Source: Turneriella sp. (GTDB taxonomy: Bacteria; Spirochaetota; Leptospiria; Turneriellales; Turneriellaceae). From it: a stretch of 36,825 nt of DNA. The notes under the pieces were generated by a model. It worked only from the letters and a program-made list of their open reading frames with translations, was not told where the DNA came from and did no database searches. Below, one piece after another: positions 198-15,960 of this stretch. The stretch covers positions 1-36,825 of the forward strand of contig JABARV010000024.1 in the NCBI GenBank assembly GCA_019186965.1, written 5' to 3'. Position 1 is the stretch's first letter; the number at the start of each line of letters is the position of its first letter. Position numbers and translations under genes: made by a program.

Positions 198-3100
198 ATG
201 CGATTTTTTTCTCCCTTTTTTGTCCTTTTAGTAGTTGCTCTTTTTAGCAACCTGTTTTCGCTCGAGATTTTTATCAACCGCAGCTATACGACCAAAGAGA
301 AGCCCGAGGCAATTTTTTATGCCTCGGGGGAAGGGCCAATGTTTCTGCGTGTTTATCGTATCGAAGACGTGAATGCTTACTTAACAGGGCAGGCGAACGC
401 GCATACCGCATCGCTTTTTAATGAGCGCATTATGCAGCCGGGATATTTTCTTTGGAAAAGTGTGATTGATAATTTTGAACACTCGCTCTATCGCCTTGCG
501 CGGCGCTATATGCGGTCAGATTTTCGTAATATCCTCCGCGATAAATTAGGACTCCAAAAGCACCAGTTTCCGTTTCGTGATCGTTTTCCCGAAGAAAATC
601 TCTTTGCGCCGCTTAAGTACCCCATTGTAAACTCGCAAACAATCGAAGTGCGTGCACGGTATTGGCATGCGAAAAAACACTACTTTGAAGGCTTAAAACC
701 TGGGTACTATCTGGTCGAGATTTCACAGGGGAGGCATATTGCACACGCGCCCCTTGTTATCTCGGATATCGCCATGGTAACCAAGACATCCCCCTACAAC
801 GTACTTTTTTATGCAGTAAATTTGCTCACAGGAAAAGCGCTCGAAAAAGGTGGAGTGACTGCGTACAAACGCGAGAAGGTGGGCGATAAAGAAGTACATA
901 CTGCAAAGGCAAATTTTAACGTTAAAGAAGGGATTGCGTATAGCGAGAACGTGGAATACCTTAAAGATTCGCAAGGGACACTTTACGTTCTTGCCGATGG
1001 GGATAACTATGCTTTCTCAGATATTTATACGATGGATGTAAACCGTGAACTCTACAACTCTGCAATTTATACCGAAAGGCCAGTTTACCGCATGGGTGAC
1101 ACTGTTTCGGTACGCGCAGTTTTTGTGCGTAAACATGGTTCTGCCGCTCACGGTAAAGTTGCGTATAAAATCCAAAAAGGAAACGAGGTTATTTTTTCTT
1201 CCCAAGGAAATCTTACCCAAGCGGGAACAATTGCGTTTGATTTCAAAACGGAATCCCTAAAACCAGCACGGTATATAATCCTTATAGAATTGGGCGGAGA
1301 GAAACACTACGGCAGTTTTCTTATTGAACAGTATAAAAAGCCAGAGACACGCTCTAATTTAACCATCGACAAGAATACAATTTTATCGGGAGAAACTACT
1401 GTAGCAGAACTTAGCGCAGCGTACTATTCGGGCGAAGCGCTTTCTAAGGCACAGGTTGAAGTCGTTATTGAACGCAAGCGAATTAGTTATCCTTGGTGGT
1501 ATGGATTTAGCGATGCGGATTACTACGGCGACGCGTACGATTATTCAGCGTGGGATTTTGTGCGAGAGTACGCAGTAACGCTCGATACAAAAGGGAAACT
1601 TCGTATCCCCATAGACACTACCCTTAAAGAATTTAAAATACCACAGGACGCTGATTACACATACCGTATCCGTACAACGGTTAAAGCACAAAACCGCGAA
1701 GAAACGCAAGCGGCTACCCGTTTCAAGGTATACCGAGCCCCCGTTGAGTTACGCTTAACGCAAGATTCGTGGTATTTTGCAGCGGGAAAACCGATTACCT
1801 TTACGGTAAGTGCAACTTCAATTTACAACCAAAAAGCTGTTGCGCAAGAAGTTAAAGCAGTTCTTTATTTGCGCGAATACGATTCTAAAGCGCGGGTATA
1901 TAGAAATACGCAAGTTGCAGAACAAACAATTAACCTTGGGGCAAATGGTGTAAAGGCAGTAGAGTTTTCTGGCGTAAAACGGGGAGGCCTTTACCAAATA
2001 CAAGTAAGCGCTGTGAATGCAGGGCGCATGACGGATGACACATTAGAGACGTATGTCTATGGGGATGATTCTTATTATGCCATGGATAGCACAGAAGGAA
2101 CAATTAGTGTAAGCGCAAACAAAAAAGAATATTCTTTGTATGAGACAGCAGAATTCCAAATACAAATGCCTGCAGCAAAAAAGCTCGCTGCGTTAGTCGT
2201 TATTGAAAACGAACGCATTGTTAAGTATAAATACGTTCCTGATGCCAAAAGTTTATGGATCTATAAAGAAGAGTTAAAAAATAATCTTACCCCCAATTTC
2301 GATATCAGCGTTCTCGCGTTTGGTTTCGATAAGCATCCCCGCTTTTATTCAGGACAAACACAGGTTGTTTTGCCTCCCAAGCACCGTGCGTTACGCCTTG
2401 AAGTTGTAAGCGATAGGGAGCGTTACCGTCCTGGTGAAGAAGCAAATTTTGTGGTGCGTACCTTCGATTCTTCGCAAAAACCTGTAAGCGCAGAATTTTC
2501 TTTGGGTATTGTCGATGAAGCAATTTATTCTCTCCACGAAGATTCTTTAAAATCGCTTTCGCTCAAACTAAACCCCAAACTTGCAAATGCAGTTGTTACA
2601 GTAAATTCTCTTGCGTTTAGTTTTTATGGCTACGGTGCTGAGAAAAGTTTATACGCACTTTACCGTGAGCAAATGGCGGAATCGGCTGCTTTGCGCAAGG
2701 GTGAGGCTGAGCGCGTAAAAATTCGTAAAAATTTTAAGGATACTGCATTTTTTACTGCACAGGGAAAAACAAATGCGGCTGGAGTAAGTACATTACACGT
2801 GCGCCTTCCAGATAATTTAACCGAGTGGCGCGTTACAACGCACGCTAATACAAACGCCGGTCTTTCTGGAAGCCAGCGAACCAAAATCACCGTTTCAAAA
2901 GATTTTGCTTTGCGCCTGGCGCGTCCAAGATTTTTACGCGAAAGGGACAATGCAAAGCTGCGGCTTTTAGTTTCAAACCAGCTTAAAGAAAAACAAACAG
3001 CAACTTTTGAAACAAAATTTTCTGCGCTCAAATTACTTTCCAAAATTCCAGAAAAACTTGATATTCCTGCAGGGGAAGAGCGTTATTTTGATTTCACCGT

Positions 3101-4847
3101 CGATGTGCCGGAGTTTCCTAAAGATGCTAAGGCCAGTTTGCAGTTTATTGCCCGCACCAAAGTAGATAACGATGGTTTAGAAATTGAGCTCCCTATTTAT
3201 CCTTACGGTGTAGAAAATTTTGTCGCAAGCCAAAAACTTTTCTCCGAAAACGAAAGTGCGTGGAAAACAAAGGTTGTCCTGCCGCAGGATGCACGTGTGG
3301 GTTTGGGTGTACTACAAATTAGTTACACGCCAGGGGTTCTTCCCTCTGTTTTGGAAACGCTACCGTATTTAATTATGTACCCCTACGGCTGTGTTGAGCA
3401 AACCCTGTCCACATTTTTACCTGCGCTATGGGCATCTTCTGCGGCGGAAAAACTTAAACTTCCTTTGCCCGTTAAAAAAACGGAACTTAAGGAAATTACC
3501 GATCAAGGTTTGCGTAAGCTCTACGGTTACCAACACGCCGATGGCGGTTGGGGCTGGTGGTCGGATGACCCAACAGACCTTTATATGACTGCGTACACGT
3601 TATGGGGGCTTGTGGAAGCTAAAAAAGCAGGAATTCCCATCGATAACGAAATTTTTCTAAAAGGGGTAAAATACCTTTCGCAAAAACTTACCGAAGAAGA
3701 CTTGCGTAAGGAAAAAAATAGTTATGCAGAGCACCGCCTAATTTTTGCCGAACGCGTAGCGGCAATGCTTCCTATCGATAAAAAACTTAAAGACAAGATT
3801 TATGCCGACTGGAAATGGATTTTATCTGGAAACTTTAACGAACCCTCGGCGCTCGCTCTTATCCTCGAAGGGGCTATTGCCCTTTCGTGGAAAGATATCG
3901 AAAGCTTGGCATTAAAAACTCTTAAAAAACTGGAACATACGTCTAAACAAGGAGCATATTTTGAGCGCGCGAAAAAAGACGGTTATTTTTATTGGTACAA
4001 CGACCGCGAAGAAACAACAGCGCAAGTTTTAAACGCCCTATTGCAATTAAAAAATTCAGAGAACAATGCATTAGAGGAAAAATTGGTCCAGTACTTGATT
4101 GCGCAGAAAAAAGAACAACGCTGGCGCAGTACAAAACTTTCTGCGCTTGTTACAAAGGGGCTTGCTTCTTATGCTCTTAAAACACAGGAAAAACTTACAT
4201 CTGTTAAAGTGGTAGCAGAGGTAAACGGGGTAAAGCTTACAAAAACTTATAATCCCAAAAAATCAACAGCAAAAGACCTTGAATTTAATTTTACCCCAAA
4301 CTCGAAAGAGGCAAATTTAAATATTTTGCGTACAGGAAATGGTTTCTTTCTTCTCCGCGCTGAATGGAAGCACTACCTTAACAAACCGCTTGCCTCTCCA
4401 CGCGAAGGTAAATTTCGCGCCAATCGCCAGTACTTCAGCGTAAATAAAAATGGAAATGTTTACTCTAAAGGGAAAAGCCAGTATACATTCAAAGCAGGAG
4501 ATTTGGTGATGGCGGAGGTAAGTTTAGCGGCGCCCAAAGGGAACGAATATCTTCTTTTGGAAGACATGATCCCTGCAGGGTTTGAGCCTTTAAACGATGC
4601 AGAGCTTGTGGACTTAGGTTCTTTGCGTTACGATACTTACGCAAACATGCCTTCTGCGGTAACACGTTTGGATGAACGTGTAGCTTTAGCGAAAACATAC
4701 CTTTACGAAAATAATTTTACTCCACGTGCATTTTATCGAGCGGTATTTCCGGGAAAATACCAAGCGATGCCTGCACAAGGAGGGCTTATGTACTATCCCG
4801 AAACTTTTGCGTATAGCGCAGCGGATGTTATTACGATTGAGGATTAA
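198..4847 (+). CDS. Bacterial alpha-2-macroglobulin (thioester protease trap)
   Basis: This 1549-residue exported protein belongs to the bacterial alpha-2-macroglobulin family (E. coli YfhM-like). The family traps attacking proteases through a bait region and a reactive thioester. A basic-hydrophobic signal peptide covers about residues 1-22. I see no lipobox cysteine, so it is probably periplasmic and soluble rather than a lipoprotein. An MG2-like strand pattern starts near residue 295 (YRMGDTVSVRA), and a second macroglobulin/bait-flanking domain near 743 (YRPGEEANFVV). The A2M core with PDNLTEWRVT lies near 871. The thioester motif GCVEQ has Cys1065 and Gln1068, and the helical-toroid motif GGWGWW is near 1116. 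The bait region is probably the Ala/Glu/Arg-rich stretch around residues 815-845. The usual partner, penicillin-binding protein 1C, is not adjacent. The next gene follows in the same frame after one TAA. Confidence 0.95.
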   Translation: MRFFSPFFVLLVVALFSNLFSLEIFINRSYTTKEKPEAIFYASGEGPMFLRVYRIEDVNAYLTGQANAHTASLFNERIMQPGYFLWKSVIDNFEHSLYRLARRYMRSDFRNILRDKLGLQKHQFPFRDRFPEENLFAPLKYPIVNSQTIEVRARYWHAKKHYFEGLKPGYYLVEISQGRHIAHAPLVISDIAMVTKTSPYNVLFYAVNLLTGKALEKGGVTAYKREKVGDKEVHTAKANFNVKEGIAYSENVEYLKDSQGTLYVLADGDNYAFSDIYTMDVNRELYNSAIYTERPVYRMGDTVSVRAVFVRKHGSAAHGKVAYKIQKGNEVIFSSQGNLTQAGTIAFDFKTESLKPARYIILIELGGEKHYGSFLIEQYKKPETRSNLTIDKNTILSGETTVAELSAAYYSGEALSKAQVEVVIERKRISYPWWYGFSDADYYGDAYDYSAWDFVREYAVTLDTKGKLRIPIDTTLKEFKIPQDADYTYRIRTTVKAQNREETQAATRFKVYRAPVELRLTQDSWYFAAGKPITFTVSATSIYNQKAVAQEVKAVLYLREYDSKARVYRNTQVAEQTINLGANGVKAVEFSGVKRGGLYQIQVSAVNAGRMTDDTLETYVYGDDSYYAMDSTEGTISVSANKKEYSLYETAEFQIQMPAAKKLAALVVIENERIVKYKYVPDAKSLWIYKEELKNNLTPNFDISVLAFGFDKHPRFYSGQTQVVLPPKHRALRLEVVSDRERYRPGEEANFVVRTFDSSQKPVSAEFSLGIVDEAIYSLHEDSLKSLSLKLNPKLANAVVTVNSLAFSFYGYGAEKSLYALYREQMAESAALRKGEAERVKIRKNFKDTAFFTAQGKTNAAGVSTLHVRLPDNLTEWRVTTHANTNAGLSGSQRTKITVSKDFALRLARPRFLRERDNAKLRLLVSNQLKEKQTATFETKFSALKLLSKIPEKLDIPAGEERYFDFTVDVPEFPKDAKASLQFIARTKVDNDGLEIELPIYPYGVENFVASQKLFSENESAWKTKVVLPQDARVGLGVLQISYTPGVLPSVLETLPYLIMYPYGCVEQTLSTFLPALWASSAAEKLKLPLPVKKTELKEITDQGLRKLYGYQHADGGWGWWSDDPTDLYMTAYTLWGLVEAKKAGIPIDNEIFLKGVKYLSQKLTEEDLRKEKNSYAEHRLIFAERVAAMLPIDKKLKDKIYADWKWILSGNFNEPSALALILEGAIALSWKDIESLALKTLKKLEHTSKQGAYFERAKKDGYFYWYNDREETTAQVLNALLQLKNSENNALEEKLVQYLIAQKKEQRWRSTKLSALVTKGLASYALKTQEKLTSVKVVAEVNGVKLTKTYNPKKSTAKDLEFNFTPNSKEANLNILRTGNGFFLLRAEWKHYLNKPLASPREGKFRANRQYFSVNKNGNVYSKGKSQYTFKAGDLVMAEVSLAAPKGNEYLLLEDMIPAGFEPLNDAELVDLGSLRYDTYANMPSAVTRLDERVALAKTYLYENNFTPRAFYRAVFPGKYQAMPAQGGLMYYPETFAYSAADVITIED

Positions 4848-9785: not shown

Positions 9786-9808
9786 TCTTACAGCGCGTCA
9801 ATTGGTTA

Positions 9809-9838
9809 GGGGCCTTATGCGCAACTCGCGCATCGTGT
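9809..9838 (+). repeat. Degenerate copy of dispersed hairpin repeat (copy A)
   Basis: GCCTTATGCGC followed by AACTCGCGC matches, with small differences, the reverse complement of the element at 12155-12180. It also resembles one arm of the palindrome at 23682-23725. Within it ATGCGC and GCGCAT form a 6-bp stem around AACTC. It lies in the divergent spacer 9786-9942 between the TPP enzyme and the first cyclase. Confidence 0.4.
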
Positions 9839-9942
9839 ATCAAAGAGGAGATTTTTTTGCAAATTTTTGTACGCGGTTCGCCCAAAAACGGTGGCTAAAT
9901 TTTATTCGCTTGCATACTCACATATATTGCGCAAAATATCCC

Positions 9943-12108
9943 ATGGGTCAAGAAAATAACGCAGTAGGTAATGGTAAGGTTTCCAGCCCGACGGATGCTA
10001 AAAGTCCACGTATCAATCTTTCGATGCGGTGGAGTATTGTTTCGCTACTTACGTTACTCATTCTTTTTTCGGCAGGACTCATTATCTTAGTCTCTTTTTT
10101 GGGAGGTAGGCAATCAACGCAGTTTTTGCTCGATACTCTCATGGAAGACAAGGCGTACCGTTTCATCGACAAAACCGCTCAATTTTTTGGCGAAGCCCAT
10201 ACCTTGGCGGGGGATGCTCGCGAGAGCACGGCGGCTTTGAATTTTTTTACTCAGCGTAAGCAGATAGAAAAAGACCTTTCCAGTGTTTTAGAACACCAGC
10301 CCTATTTTTCGAATGTGTACTATATCCGTGCGGGTAAAGTGTTGCTTGCACAAAACAAGGGTGTTCCAAAGGTACATACAGAAAATCTTCTGGAAGAGCT
10401 TGGTGAGAACTCTTCCGATACAGAAAAATTGGCGCTAACGCTAACATTTGAAGAGCGCACGCTTGCCCATTTAGAGAAATTCCCGTGGACTTGGCCGCAA
10501 TATAGTACGGGAAAAAAAATGACTCCCTTGCACCGTACATTCGCCGGTGGGCAACCTGGATTTACCTATTGCTCGCCATTTAACCCAGTTCAAGGTATTC
10601 TCGCGGGCGGAATTTGTATCGATATAACTCTCGGTGATTTAGCGCTTTTTGTTGGTTCTGTTAAAGTTGGCGAAACGGGAGGCGCATTTCTTTTCGATAA
10701 AAATATGAACATCCTTGCTGCTCCGCAACAGACACGCGATTCTGAACGTTATATTAAAAGCGAGAGTAGCAAGATGGAGCTTAAAAACGTAATGCAGTTT
10801 GATAGCGCCGAACTTAAGGCTGCCAATGTAGCGATGAATAAGAAATTAAAAAAACTCATGAAAAAGAAAAAATGGTTAAAAACAAAAAAGCCATTTTATT
10901 TTGACTTTAAACTTGCAGGTAATCGGTTTGTTGGGCTTTTTGCGCCGTTCCCAGCGTATACCGGGCTCGATTGGCAAACAGGAGTTATAATTCCTGAAGA
11001 CGAGTTTTTTTACTTTGTTCGCCGCAATACGCGCATTGTCATGCTTACTTCAATTTTTTTGGTGTTGTTGGCTGTTTTGATGGGATATATCTTCTCTCGA
11101 AAGCTCGCCCGCCCCTTAAACGAACTTTCAACCGAGATGGATAAAATCCAGAGCTTCGAGCTACATTCCGAAAAAACAATTGTGTCGTCGATAACCGATG
11201 TACAGAATATGGTTGTTTCTTTTTATAAGATGCGGCAAGGCTTGCGTTCTTTCGGAAAATTTGTACCTACAGATATCGTAAGGCAACTTATTGCGCAAGA
11301 AGGCGATGCGCATTTACAGGGTGAAAAGCGGACGCTCACAGTACATTTTTCTGACATAGAAGGATTTACCACGGTTTCAGAAAGTCTTAAACCCGAAGTT
11401 CTTGTCGACCTGCTTGCTGAATACTTAGGAGAGATGAGTCGCATTATTGCTGAAGAAAAGGGTACGGTTGATAAATATATCGGTGACGCTGTTATGGCTT
11501 TTTGGGGAGCTCCGCAAAACGTTCCAGACCATGCCGAACGTGCAGCAATGGCAGCTTTGCGTTGCCAAGCGCGTCTTGCCGAACTCGAGAAAAAATGGCG
11601 TTCCGAAGGGCGTCCTGTTTTTCGTGCGCGTATAGGGCTTAACACCGGAGAAATTATCGTTGGTAACATGGGGTCTGCGGAGCGTTTAAACTACACCGTA
11701 ATCGGCGATGCTGTTAACCTTGCAAGCCGCCTCGAGGGGATAAACAAATACTATGGCACGCGGATTGTCGTTGGTGAGACGACTCAGGAGCTTATACAGC
11801 ACCGTTTTATAACTCGCCTGCTCGATTTTGTGGCCGTCAAAGGCAAAAGCGAAGCGGTACGTATTTATGAACTTGTAGGCGAGAAAAGCCAGGTGGGCAA
11901 AGATGTTCTTGATTTCGTTGCATGTTTTGGAGAGGCGATTAATTTGTACCGTAAAAAAGAATGGGACAGCGCAGAATTAAAATTCCGTTTAGCGCTATCT
12001 TTGCGTGAAGATGAGGCATGCCATTTATTCTTAAAACGTATAGCCGAATACAGAGTCAATCCACCCGGCGAAAATTGGTCGGGCGAATTTGTTATGACAA
12101 GCAAATAG
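9943..12108 (+). CDS. Membrane adenylate cyclase with extracytoplasmic sensor
   Basis: This class III adenylate cyclase makes cAMP. I start it at ATG 9943 (721 residues). The frame runs on to a TTG at 9802, but that N-terminus is basic and has no ribosome site. A first membrane helix (about 27-48) is followed by a periplasmic region of about 300 residues that looks like a Cache-type sensor. A second helix lies near 365-385, then a HAMP-like linker (RKLARPLNELSTEM), then the catalytic domain. Metal-binding Asp471 (FSDIEGFT) and Asp515 (YIGDAVMAFWG) are present. So are adenine-selecting Lys511 and Asp589 (VIGDAVNLASRLE) and the transition-state residues Asn592 and Arg596, so an active, ATP-specific enzyme is expected. 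The C-terminal tail of about 80 residues looks like a single TPR-type unit. Confidence 0.9.
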   Translation: MGQENNAVGNGKVSSPTDAKSPRINLSMRWSIVSLLTLLILFSAGLIILVSFLGGRQSTQFLLDTLMEDKAYRFIDKTAQFFGEAHTLAGDARESTAALNFFTQRKQIEKDLSSVLEHQPYFSNVYYIRAGKVLLAQNKGVPKVHTENLLEELGENSSDTEKLALTLTFEERTLAHLEKFPWTWPQYSTGKKMTPLHRTFAGGQPGFTYCSPFNPVQGILAGGICIDITLGDLALFVGSVKVGETGGAFLFDKNMNILAAPQQTRDSERYIKSESSKMELKNVMQFDSAELKAANVAMNKKLKKLMKKKKWLKTKKPFYFDFKLAGNRFVGLFAPFPAYTGLDWQTGVIIPEDEFFYFVRRNTRIVMLTSIFLVLLAVLMGYIFSRKLARPLNELSTEMDKIQSFELHSEKTIVSSITDVQNMVVSFYKMRQGLRSFGKFVPTDIVRQLIAQEGDAHLQGEKRTLTVHFSDIEGFTTVSESLKPEVLVDLLAEYLGEMSRIIAEEKGTVDKYIGDAVMAFWGAPQNVPDHAERAAMAALRCQARLAELEKKWRSEGRPVFRARIGLNTGEIIVGNMGSAERLNYTVIGDAVNLASRLEGINKYYGTRIVVGETTQELIQHRFITRLLDFVAVKGKSEAVRIYELVGEKSQVGKDVLDFVACFGEAINLYRKKEWDSAELKFRLALSLREDEACHLFLKRIAEYRVNPPGENWSGEFVMTSK

Positions 12109-12184: not shown

Positions 12185-14764
12185 TTATGCTGGGGTTAAA
12201 ATTTTTTTAAATTTCTCATTCGGTATGCGTCCCTTGCCATCGACGGAATATTCTGGTTTTATACTGCGCAAAAAATACATTGTAATTTTACCTTTGTTTT
12301 TGGCCAAAATTTTTCCACGTGTTTCGCAAACAAAAAATTTCTTGACCTGTAAATATGTCGCTTCGGAAATATTGATTTCTCCCGCGATTCCCGCAGACTC
12401 CATACGGCTGGCAGTATTTACTGTATCGCCCCATACATCGTACGCAAACTTTTTTTCTCCCACGACGCCTGCGACCAAATTACCGGTGTTGATGCCAATG
12501 CGTAGCTGCCAGTATGGTTGATTTTGTTTCTTTTTAATAAACCGCATTTGATCCATAAAATCGCGGATTTCCATTGCGGCGAGGCAGCAATCGATGGCGT
12601 GGGTGTTGTTTGGTATAGGAATACCGCCTGCTGCCATAAAGGAATCACCGATTGTTTTGAGCTTTTCCAGTTTATACCGTTCGCAGACTTTGTCAAAGTA
12701 TGTAAAACACCTGTCTAGTTCGCCAACAAGCTTTTGAGGAGTCATCGCTTCGGCGATTTTGGTAAAACCGACAAAGTCGGTAAAAAACACAGTAGCCGAT
12801 TGAAAAAGTATTGGTTCGGTTGAACCTTTGTCTTTAAGTTCTCGAACGATATCTGCAGGTAGTATGTTAAGTAAAAGCTGGTCGGATTTATGCCGTTCGG
12901 TTTCAATTTCCGATTCCGAAAGACGCGCTTGGGCGGTTGTATAGAAAAAATACACAATAAATGTGGCAATGAGCGTTGCAAGTACAACAAAACCGAGTTG
13001 TGAAACGATAGCATTGTCCGGTAAAGGAAAAAGCGGTGAATAACGCTGTAAAAACCAGTGTGAAAAGAGGATAATAAAACTTATACTAAAAAGGCCTAAA
13101 CCTAAAATCATTTTTTCCCATGGTGTTTTTCCCGAAAGCGCAATAAAGGGTAAGGGTAAAAGCGCCAGTGCAAAAATATAGAAGAACGAATCCGCTTGCA
13201 CCGAGATACCGACATAACCGAGAAGAAGTATGCCCCATAGGTAAGCTACCGATATGGGAGTAAGTGTACGCGTAAATTTATTCGCATAAAAGCAGGCGGT
13301 TAAAAGAAGTAAAGAAAAAGATGTTGGCACAAGATAGTGAAAAATAAAACCTGTGGTGTCGTTAAAGCCTAACTTGGATAACGAAAATAAAATTTTAACT
13401 TCGTTGAAAATCATAAACGAAGTTAAAACAATAAATACCAACAATAGTTGGTTTTGCATTATACGGTATTTCTTATCAATTTCAGATTCAAAAAAATGAG
13501 TACCGCGTAAGCTCCAACGGCGCCAAAGGGCAAAAAAACGCTCTTTAAGTTCAGATTTAATCCAAATATAGATGAGTGTAACGATAAAAAGACCAATGTT
13601 GCTAAAGACGAGTATTTCTCCCGCAAAACTAGTCATGTCGGGTGGCAAGGGACGCCAACCATCTTGTAGCGTAAAAAAACATAGCGCAAAAAAAGCGGTG
13701 GGTAAAAGCGCCATCGCATACTTAAAACGCACCGAGGCAACGGAAAAAAAAGCGGGAACTAAAATGAGGGGCAAGAAAACATAGTGTAAACCAATTTCGT
13801 GTCCCTGTATAAATGAGAGGTAGAGCGTGTAGATATTGCCAGCAACAAAAATAATTGTTTCAAAACGCGTGTTGGTATTTGATTTTGCTTTGAGGCGAAA
13901 AATTTGCAAAAAAAGGGAAATGCAAATAAGCGTCGGTACAAGATAAAATAAAAAATAAAATAGGTACGTTTCAACATGGCGTATTAAGAGAATAATTACT
14001 AATACGGCTTGTACGACAGCTACAACTATAAGCGCGATGGTGAACACCATAATAATCTGGTTTGAAATAACGTGGTTACGCCGCTCTTTTTCATCTATAT
14101 ATTTTTCAGCGCCTGCTTTCGCGTAGTGCATCCATACATCGTGGATGCGTTGAAAAACTTGGGTTAAAAATCCTAAATAAAGAATTTGGATACCAAACAA
14201 TAAAATACTCAAGACAACAATAATCGCGTTAAGTTCAATTTTTATATATTCTGGTGCGGGAAAGTGTGGTTTCCATTTTAACGCAAGCGCTCGCATTGCA
14301 ACCAAGAAAGCGACGTTGAACGCAAGGACTATCGAGGCGCGAAAAATATGGTTAGGGAAAGCTAAAAAGCCTATAGGTAAAAATGCTAAAACATAATAGA
14401 AAAGGCCGGTATCAAAACCAATGAGGAGCGAAAGAAAAAATGGAAAAAGAATAAATGCGAAAGCTGCAGCGGCAATAATAAAGCTTTGCAAACGGACAAA
14501 ACGGCGCAAACTGTAGAAGATAAGGTTTGCGGCGATAAATGCGAAGCAAAGAGAAAAAAGTGGCGTGCGGTAGTGTGCATAACTTATATGTTCTTTCGCT
14601 TCCATATACCAAATAAAAATATGGATGAGCAAAAGAGCAAGGCACAAAAAAGCAAGGTTGAGCAAAAGGCCATGGCTTACAAACCGGTGGTGTCGCGCTT
14701 CAACTTCAGTGGCATTTGGTTTTGCGCCATAATTAACCAGCGCTTGGAATAATCGTTTCAGCAT
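12185..14764 (-). CDS. Adenylate cyclase with ~18 transmembrane helices in three tandem 6-helix modules
   Basis: This 859-residue protein ends in a class III cyclase domain with metal Asp663 (FTDFVGFT) and Asp707 (TIGDSFMAAGG), adenine-selecting Lys703 and Asp780 (VWGDTVNTASRME), and Asn783 and Arg787. All the residues expected of an active adenylate cyclase are therefore present. The N-terminal 640 residues hold about 18 hydrophobic helices. They look like three copies of a six-helix module starting near residues 22, 228 and 433, a period of about 205. Each starts with a basic patch and an F/I-V/M-S/Q-type helix. Each has a mid-module F/HYxxxxLLP-like helix pair and a W/Y-x-P-x-x-P segment before helix 6. 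I chose Met at 14764 because GGTGG lies 6 nt upstream; 14785 is the alternative. The spacer upstream (14765-14967) holds an inverted repeat. Confidence 0.88.
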   Translation of the reverse strand: MLKRLFQALVNYGAKPNATEVEARHHRFVSHGLLLNLAFLCLALLLIHIFIWYMEAKEHISYAHYRTPLFSLCFAFIAANLIFYSLRRFVRLQSFIIAAAAFAFILFPFFLSLLIGFDTGLFYYVLAFLPIGFLAFPNHIFRASIVLAFNVAFLVAMRALALKWKPHFPAPEYIKIELNAIIVVLSILLFGIQILYLGFLTQVFQRIHDVWMHYAKAGAEKYIDEKERRNHVISNQIIMVFTIALIVVAVVQAVLVIILLIRHVETYLFYFLFYLVPTLICISLFLQIFRLKAKSNTNTRFETIIFVAGNIYTLYLSFIQGHEIGLHYVFLPLILVPAFFSVASVRFKYAMALLPTAFFALCFFTLQDGWRPLPPDMTSFAGEILVFSNIGLFIVTLIYIWIKSELKERFFALWRRWSLRGTHFFESEIDKKYRIMQNQLLLVFIVLTSFMIFNEVKILFSLSKLGFNDTTGFIFHYLVPTSFSLLLLTACFYANKFTRTLTPISVAYLWGILLLGYVGISVQADSFFYIFALALLPLPFIALSGKTPWEKMILGLGLFSISFIILFSHWFLQRYSPLFPLPDNAIVSQLGFVVLATLIATFIVYFFYTTAQARLSESEIETERHKSDQLLLNILPADIVRELKDKGSTEPILFQSATVFFTDFVGFTKIAEAMTPQKLVGELDRCFTYFDKVCERYKLEKLKTIGDSFMAAGGIPIPNNTHAIDCCLAAMEIRDFMDQMRFIKKKQNQPYWQLRIGINTGNLVAGVVGEKKFAYDVWGDTVNTASRMESAGIAGEINISEATYLQVKKFFVCETRGKILAKNKGKITMYFLRSIKPEYSVDGKGRIPNEKFKKILTPA

Positions 14765-14841
14765 TTTGTTCCACCATAAGTTCATTTTCCATTTGTTTTT
14801 GCCAGCAAAAAATAATTTATTTCTGCTGCTATGTGGGTGGA

Positions 14842-14906
14842 CCGGAACTCGCTGAGGCAAATTTTTCGCACATTTTGAATCGCTATTTTGGCTTCGCGAG
14901 TTCCGG
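14842..14906. repeat. 11-bp inverted repeat in the cyclase upstream spacer
   Basis: CCGGAACTCGC at 14842-14852 is perfectly inverted at 14896-14906, with 43 bp between. The arm shares the AACTCGC core of the other dispersed repeats in the window. It lies between the PAP2 stop (14968) and the cyclase start. It could be a transcript hairpin between two co-directional genes, or a footprint of a small mobile repeat. Confidence 0.55.
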
Positions 14907-14967
14907 CCTATCCACTTAGCCACCCAGAAAAATATCCCGTTTGGACAATCCCAGCCTTCTTTGGTAT

Positions 14968-15960
14968 TTATTGCGGTAGATGCCTGCTGAAGTAAGGGTA
15001 CACATAGAACGTCGCAATGATTACTAAGAAGTACCGCACGACGCGTAGAAGGTCACCCCAAAATCCTTCTTTAGGAAAAATCCAAGAAAGCGACAGGAAT
15101 ATTGTAAGAACAAAAACTTCGGCCAAAATAAAATGGAGTAGTCGCCATCCCAATTTTTTTGGCATCGTATAGTTTTTTTGGGGTAAAGCGGTTGCAAAAT
15201 ACAAGCCCAAAACACAACCGATTATTGTAAGGAAAGCATCGATTGAAAAAGGCTCAAGATGGCGTACCGGTTGCTCTTTCACCATTTTAATACTTTGCTG
15301 TGCTTTTGCAGACCAATAATTCAATTCAGGTAGAGTTTGGTTTTGGGTTAATAAAATTGCACCAGAAAGAATGATGCCACAAAACACGAGGATGACAAAA
15401 GTTTGAACGATACTTTTTTGTTTTAGAAAAACTTCGTGTGCACTGTGTTCCGCTTTGATGAATAAGTACAATAATACAAATCCAATAAGTAATCCGCTTA
15501 AAATATCTTGTAAAAAGTGAACTCCCAAAACAAGCCGTGAAAGTGCGATTAAAAATACCCAGATTACGGTAAAACCAAGAGTCCATAATTTGGGTAAGTG
15601 CCGAACGGTGATAAGAAAATACGCAAGGTATCCCCATACCACCACTGCGTTTTGGCTATGGCCTGAGGGTAGTCCAAACGAGCCCTCAAAAACATACGCA
15701 GGTACTTTATTTATCCAAAAAGGACGGGGTTGCATAAAAGCAATTTTAACGAAAGAATTTACCGCATAGCTGATAAGTAATAGCCACAAAAGTGAAAGCG
15801 CCGCACGGCGTTCAAGAGTAAAGAAAACAAATGGAATTAGTATAAAGAAGAAAAGTTTTTCGCCAGTAAACGTGATGGGTAGAAAAAATTTTGCAGATGG
15901 CATAATCGACTGTAGCCAAAGGTTCACTTGGCCTGTCGAATCCCAGAAAAATGCTTCCAT
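14968..15960 (-). CDS. PAP2-family membrane phosphatase
   Basis: This 330-residue integral membrane protein carries the complete PAP2 signature. Motif 1 has Lys72 to Arg79-Pro80 (KIAFMQPRP), motif 2 is PSGH at 98-101, and motif 3 is Ser141-Arg142 with catalytic His148 and Asp152 (SRLVLGVHFLQD). Family members remove phosphate from phosphatidic acid, phosphatidylglycerol phosphate or undecaprenyl pyrophosphate on the outer face of the inner membrane; the substrate here is open. About eight hydrophobic helices are visible, with a C-terminal extension of roughly 130 residues beyond the catalytic core. It is divergent from an acyl-CoA synthetase and shares an operator-like region with it. Confidence 0.9.
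   Translation of the reverse strand: MEAFFWDSTGQVNLWLQSIMPSAKFFLPITFTGEKLFFFILIPFVFFTLERRAALSLLWLLLISYAVNSFVKIAFMQPRPFWINKVPAYVFEGSFGLPSGHSQNAVVVWGYLAYFLITVRHLPKLWTLGFTVIWVFLIALSRLVLGVHFLQDILSGLLIGFVLLYLFIKAEHSAHEVFLKQKSIVQTFVILVFCGIILSGAILLTQNQTLPELNYWSAKAQQSIKMVKEQPVRHLEPFSIDAFLTIIGCVLGLYFATALPQKNYTMPKKLGWRLLHFILAEVFVLTIFLSLSWIFPKEGFWGDLLRVVRYFLVIIATFYVYPYFSRHLPQ

Follow-up and report, generated by a model that had tools for sequence, protein, structure and literature searches.

The window (the whole stretch of 36,825 nucleotides that was analysed, from a host genome of 3.08 Mb) carries on its minus strand an adenylate cyclase gene whose predicted product places three six-helix membrane modules, here called M1, M2 and M3, ahead of a single catalytic domain. 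The gene and its parts are as follows.

12185..14764, minus strand: adenylate cyclase gene, open reading frame from ATG, 859 aa
14168..14764, minus strand: module M1, residues 1-199, TM helices at 33, 67, 94, 119, 143 and 178; the most diverged copy
13556..14167, minus strand: module M2, residues 200-403, TM helices at 237, 271, ~301 (weak), 326, 349 and 384
12923..13555, minus strand: module M3, residues 404-614, TM helices at 436, 477, 504, 524, 552 and 590
12815..12922, minus strand: linker from TM18 to the catalytic domain, residues 615-650, SESEIETERHKSDQLLLNILPADIVRELK, at the position of the helical domain or cyclase transducer element
12266..12805, minus strand: class III cyclase catalytic domain (PF00211), residues 654-833, 3e-51

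A second in-frame ATG, at 14785, is an equally plausible start, and a GTG start at 14923 was rejected as implausible because it falls inside a dispersed inverted-repeat element. This imperfect element (14832-14920, CCGGAACTCGC...GCGAGTTCCGG), located between the cyclase gene and a PAP2 gene, shows strong folding (z -5.0) and has 39 matches listed genome-wide, many of which are parts of one copy; a coding-frame string similar to it was found at the 5' end of ORF 9802. The PAP2 gene (14968-15960) lies immediately upstream of the three-module cyclase gene on the same strand, encodes a PAP2-superfamily membrane phosphatase and has no near homologue in the remaining genomes of the genus (best E 8e-5). 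The three-module cyclase gene is convergent with a second adenylate cyclase gene (9802-12108, with a dCache sensor and PF00211), which is kept in five genus genomes (63-71% over the N-terminal part), whereas the three-module gene is not. On the genus-genome stretches compared, the three-module cyclase and PAP2 genes were not seen beside the dCache cyclase. A bacterial alpha-2-macroglobulin gene (MG2, bait region, A2M, TED and bMG10 domains) occupies 198-4847.

Catalytic domain, linker and helix layout

The match of the catalytic domain to PF00211 reached 174 bits against a cut-off of 21.9, and only one such stretch was found in the protein. The preliminary description had reported a single cyclase domain with all catalytic residues, and D663, D707, K703, D776, N783 and R787 are indeed present. 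From the roles known in Rv1625c-type cyclases, we take D663 and D707 to be the metal aspartates and K703/D776 to be the adenine/ATP-selecting pair. Judged by this domain and these key residues, the protein is a class III adenylate cyclase, and 14 places in the host genome match the cyclase family. The closest solved relatives by sequence are adenylyl cyclases, with the single-chain Cya (7yzi) matching residues 493-833; a PDB sequence search with the modules returned chance matches only, and M3 alone retrieved no solved structure by sequence. The linker is conserved with L016/L119, a single-module cyclase of the same genus, and has no counterpart behind M1 or M2. The centre of the CTE_1 cyclase transducer element is SxL/MP (PMC9552081); the window protein has NILP at the expected position, with Asn replacing Ser, and the same is seen in L016.

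A scan on the biological hydrophobicity scale displayed 17 clear helices and one weak helix ahead of the catalytic domain, the weak one being helix 3 of M2 (residues 301-319, best dG 2.82). The family-average hydrophobicity profile presents exactly six helices, and each third of the membrane part has a segment at all six aligned positions, so that the early reading of about 18 helices, arranged as three equal blocks of six before one cyclase domain, holds. The period of about 205 residues proposed at the same time was likewise recovered, with helix-1 starts (33, 237 and 436) and domain starts in a hidden Markov model, or HMM, of the module family (1, 202 and 406) in agreement. The signs described as shared among the thirds belong to the family: WKPHFPAP, WRPLPPD and YSPLFPLP correspond to the consensus PLxPLP, the proline turn after helix 4 to PIPFF and the basic stretch before helix 1 to W..G....K..R..N. 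M1, M2 and M3 keep 10-13 of the 21 family-conserved positions (10-11 in M1 and M2), and all three have their positive loop charges on the cytosolic side, with both termini of every module placed inside. In M1 as in M2, helix 6 leads directly into the N-terminal helix of the module that follows.

Homology, distribution and origin of the modules

The module HMM was built from 21 single-module relatives, with the window protein excluded, and matched that protein three times in tandem, each time at nearly full length (residues 1-192, 202-403 and 406-612), with scores of 48.6-54.7 bits for M1, 105.1-110.5 for M2 and 98.6-105.5 for M3. When each module was shuffled 1000 times with its pattern of strongly hydrophobic, intermediate and charged residues preserved, no shuffle reached the real score, the best values being 14.5, 35.3 and 30.0 bits for M1, M2 and M3, respectively. 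A separate window-free profile of 11 relatives gave M1 34-38 bits, whereas none of 76 membrane ORFs without the module scored above 15.0; the same profile, used in a genome-wide search, listed M2 and M3, and not M1. Pairwise, M2 and M3 are significantly similar by themselves (BLAST 8e-7; hhalign 4e-5) and are the sole such pair; the values are marginal for M1-M3 (BLAST 0.002, hhalign 0.07) and lack significance for M1-M2 (BLAST 0.08, hhalign 0.035). The membership of M1 therefore rests on the family profile, and the internal repeat asserted in the preliminary description was recovered by direct pairwise comparison for M2-M3, not for M1-M2 and only marginally for M1-M3. By these profile matches M1, although the weakest of the three, belongs to the module family, and three homologous six-helix modules are predicted to precede the single catalytic domain, as had been claimed.

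The single-module homologues that the triple arrangement had led one to expect do occur in the genus and in the class, where the six-helix block is fused to a cyclase or to PAS and HATPase_c_2 domains. Two such proteins of the latter type are encoded in the same genome, L068 (G000:C2:140285-140917), with PAS and HATPase_c_2 behind the 6TM module, and L104 (G000:C2:188839-189426), the C-terminal part of which is similar to that of L068. One genome shows two kinds of output joined to the 6TM module, as is expected of a sensor. The module is without a Pfam family of its own and presents a distant profile similarity to MASE7 (PF20967) over 192 columns. The window protein itself had no match to MASE7 at E 0.1, and the best module-family member (E 0.0074) fell below the curated cut-off, which was exceeded in another single-module cyclase of the host genome.

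In a profile search of 48 class genomes and 393 phylum genomes, the window gene was the only tandem ORF of the module family. No orthologue was found in 7 genus genomes, the class, the 393 phylum genomes or plasmids, and phages gave matches to the catalytic domain only. The 18-helix part (residues 1-620) had no match in GTDB contigs in a search that covered close relatives only and may omit the own genome. A candidate second tandem case in the genome G220 was weak and not counted, since the fragment concerned, of 104 residues and 23 bits, lies at the end of a contig in a separate ORF.

With regard to origin, M3 groups in the module tree with the modules of the single-module cyclases L016 (99/86) and L116 (100/99), and resembles modules of other proteins most closely (33%, vs about 25% to M2). 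AU tests rejected a clade of all three modules (p 0.007) as well as one of M2 and M3 (p 0.002), and did not reject M1 and M2 as sisters (p 0.136); M1 has diverged strongly (end branch 3.6), and the tree is less secure on account of its long branches. The grouping of M3 and the AU rejections fit accretion better than triplication, and M1 and M2 were probably fused, cleanly at module ends, before an ordinary 6TM M3-cyclase. The word triplicated, used at the outset for the membrane domain, is for this reason not retained in the sense of an event within the gene: in-gene triplication of one six-helix block would account for the regular ~205-residue period and the colinear homology, but is made very improbable by the same AU values and by the closeness of M3 to modules of other proteins. 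A recent DNA duplication or an assembly artefact was also rejected, since there are no long direct DNA repeats in phase within the gene, the modules are only about 15-25% identical to each other, and GC and GC3 lie in the same range across M1, M2 and M3.

Stacked modules in other cyclases

The preliminary description had set the protein against known membrane cyclases with one six-helix block per catalytic domain, a statement that proved too strong. When helices were counted in 96 cyclase ORFs of the class, some had 9-15 helices ahead of a single catalytic domain, and at least 8 of these consist of two tandem homologous modules of ~265 residues, with ~7-8 helices each, before one catalytic domain. 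These tandem cyclases, all from other class genomes, are as follows.

L143, L151, L173, L145, L159, L146, L147 and L181: tandem ~7-8 TM cyclases

The two halves are homologous to each other (hhalign 97.9%, E 4.6e-13). The Pfam scan covered L143 alone, in which GAF domains precede the cyclase and the membrane part matches no Pfam family. A profile of the membrane pair, of which the cyclase domain is not part, gave 17 near-full-length matches in 14 of the 48 class genomes and none in the host genome; the profiles of the single halves (hA and hB) did not match the window protein, and by HMM the modules are unrelated to those of the window. The two-module cyclases and the 18-helix protein together suggest, at the level of sequence, that architectures with several membrane modules before one cyclase domain recur in this spirochaete class and arose at least twice, the 18-helix protein being the extreme one and separate from the others. 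In the literature searched, no description of either stacked design was found.

Several known systems share part of this architecture. The closest is L016/L119 ('Leptospiraceae bacterium MAG-291', JAEUSA010000112), which has the same module family and catalytic domain and is 46% identical over M3 and the catalytic domain, but, unlike the window protein, has one module in 456 aa and lacks M1 and M2. The 6TM-PAS-HATPase_c_2 proteins (L068, L104 and others in the genus) also carry the module N-terminally, although only once and with PAS and HATPase_c_2 as the output, whereas the window protein has three modules and a cyclase. Class IIIa cyclases of the Rv1625c/Cya type resemble it in the 6TM anchor, the linker helix, the class III domain and the catalytic residues (PMC9433096), and differ in having one 6TM block instead of three. 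Mammalian membrane adenylyl cyclases likewise have more than one 6TM block per chain; however, each of their two blocks has its own catalytic domain (PMC9552081), compared with one catalytic domain in the window protein. The tandem ~7-8 TM cyclases (L143, L146, L173 and others) similarly have several membrane modules per catalytic domain, but from a different module family and in two copies rather than three, with GAF domains in L143. Pfam MASE7 (PF20967) is a six-helix N-terminal cyclase module that occurs in these genomes, below the cut-off of which the window modules remain.

Possible roles of M1 and M2

The linker helix by which a membrane domain is coupled to the cyclase occurs behind M3 only. 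We favour, with moderate confidence, a model in which M1 and M2 are two further sensor modules placed ahead of an ordinary M3-cyclase, so that membrane signals would converge on cAMP. The enzyme would act as a homodimer, in which, by analogy with Rv1625c/Cya, the M3 modules of both chains would make up a core governing the linker coiled coil and the catalytic dimer, while M1 and M2 would lie next to M3 in the membrane and serve as additional receptors or modulators. Binding of membrane-soluble ligands (for which fatty acids in Rv1625c are a precedent) or of lipids to M1 and M2 would then change the state of M3, and several membrane signals would converge on a single cAMP output. In the structure of Cya, TM4-6 form the dimer interface of the 6TM domain, which guides the helical domain and the assembly (PMC9433096); a CqsS-Rv1625c chimera provides a precedent for a 6TM anchor as a receptor (PMC4821796), and inhibition by fatty acids requires the 6TM membrane domain (PMC12505454). 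A point against this model of stacked sensor modules is the occurrence of the gene in a single known genome, and M1, being strongly diverged, could be a decaying passenger. A stronger form, in which each chain would hold three distinct receptors, with M1 and M2 binding different membrane-soluble ligands and acting via M3, and a 36-helix homodimer would integrate the signals, is put forward tentatively and seems rather doubtful; no stacked receptor architecture for adenylate cyclases was described in the literature searched.

Two other explanations of M1 and M2 were considered. If they were inert fusion passengers that add mass only, M3 alone would regulate the enzyme, which would agree with the occurrence in a single genome without an orthologue in 7 genus genomes, the long branch of M1 and the missing output linker of M1 and M2. 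Nevertheless, both modules keep six helices, an inside-positive topology and 10-11 of 21 conserved positions despite their deep divergence, the reading frame is intact, and a stack of two membrane modules before one catalytic domain has come about independently in other cyclases of the class, all of which makes inert passengers unlikely. A structural role, in which M1 and M2 would form a pseudodimer like the mammalian TM1/TM2 and pre-assemble or cluster the enzyme instead of sensing, draws on the dimerisation of the Rv1625c 6TM domains via TM4-6, on the guidance of assembly by the TM domain (PMC9433096) and on the sisterhood of M1 and M2 not rejected by the AU test (p 0.136); as it leaves the recruitment of a divergent pair unexplained, it is regarded as distinctly improbable.

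It has long been asked whether adenylate cyclases use their six-helix domains as anchors or as receptors. Because one module suffices if the modules merely anchor, the two extra modules of the window protein, which carry the family signature, offer a natural experiment in which anchoring may be told apart from sensing.
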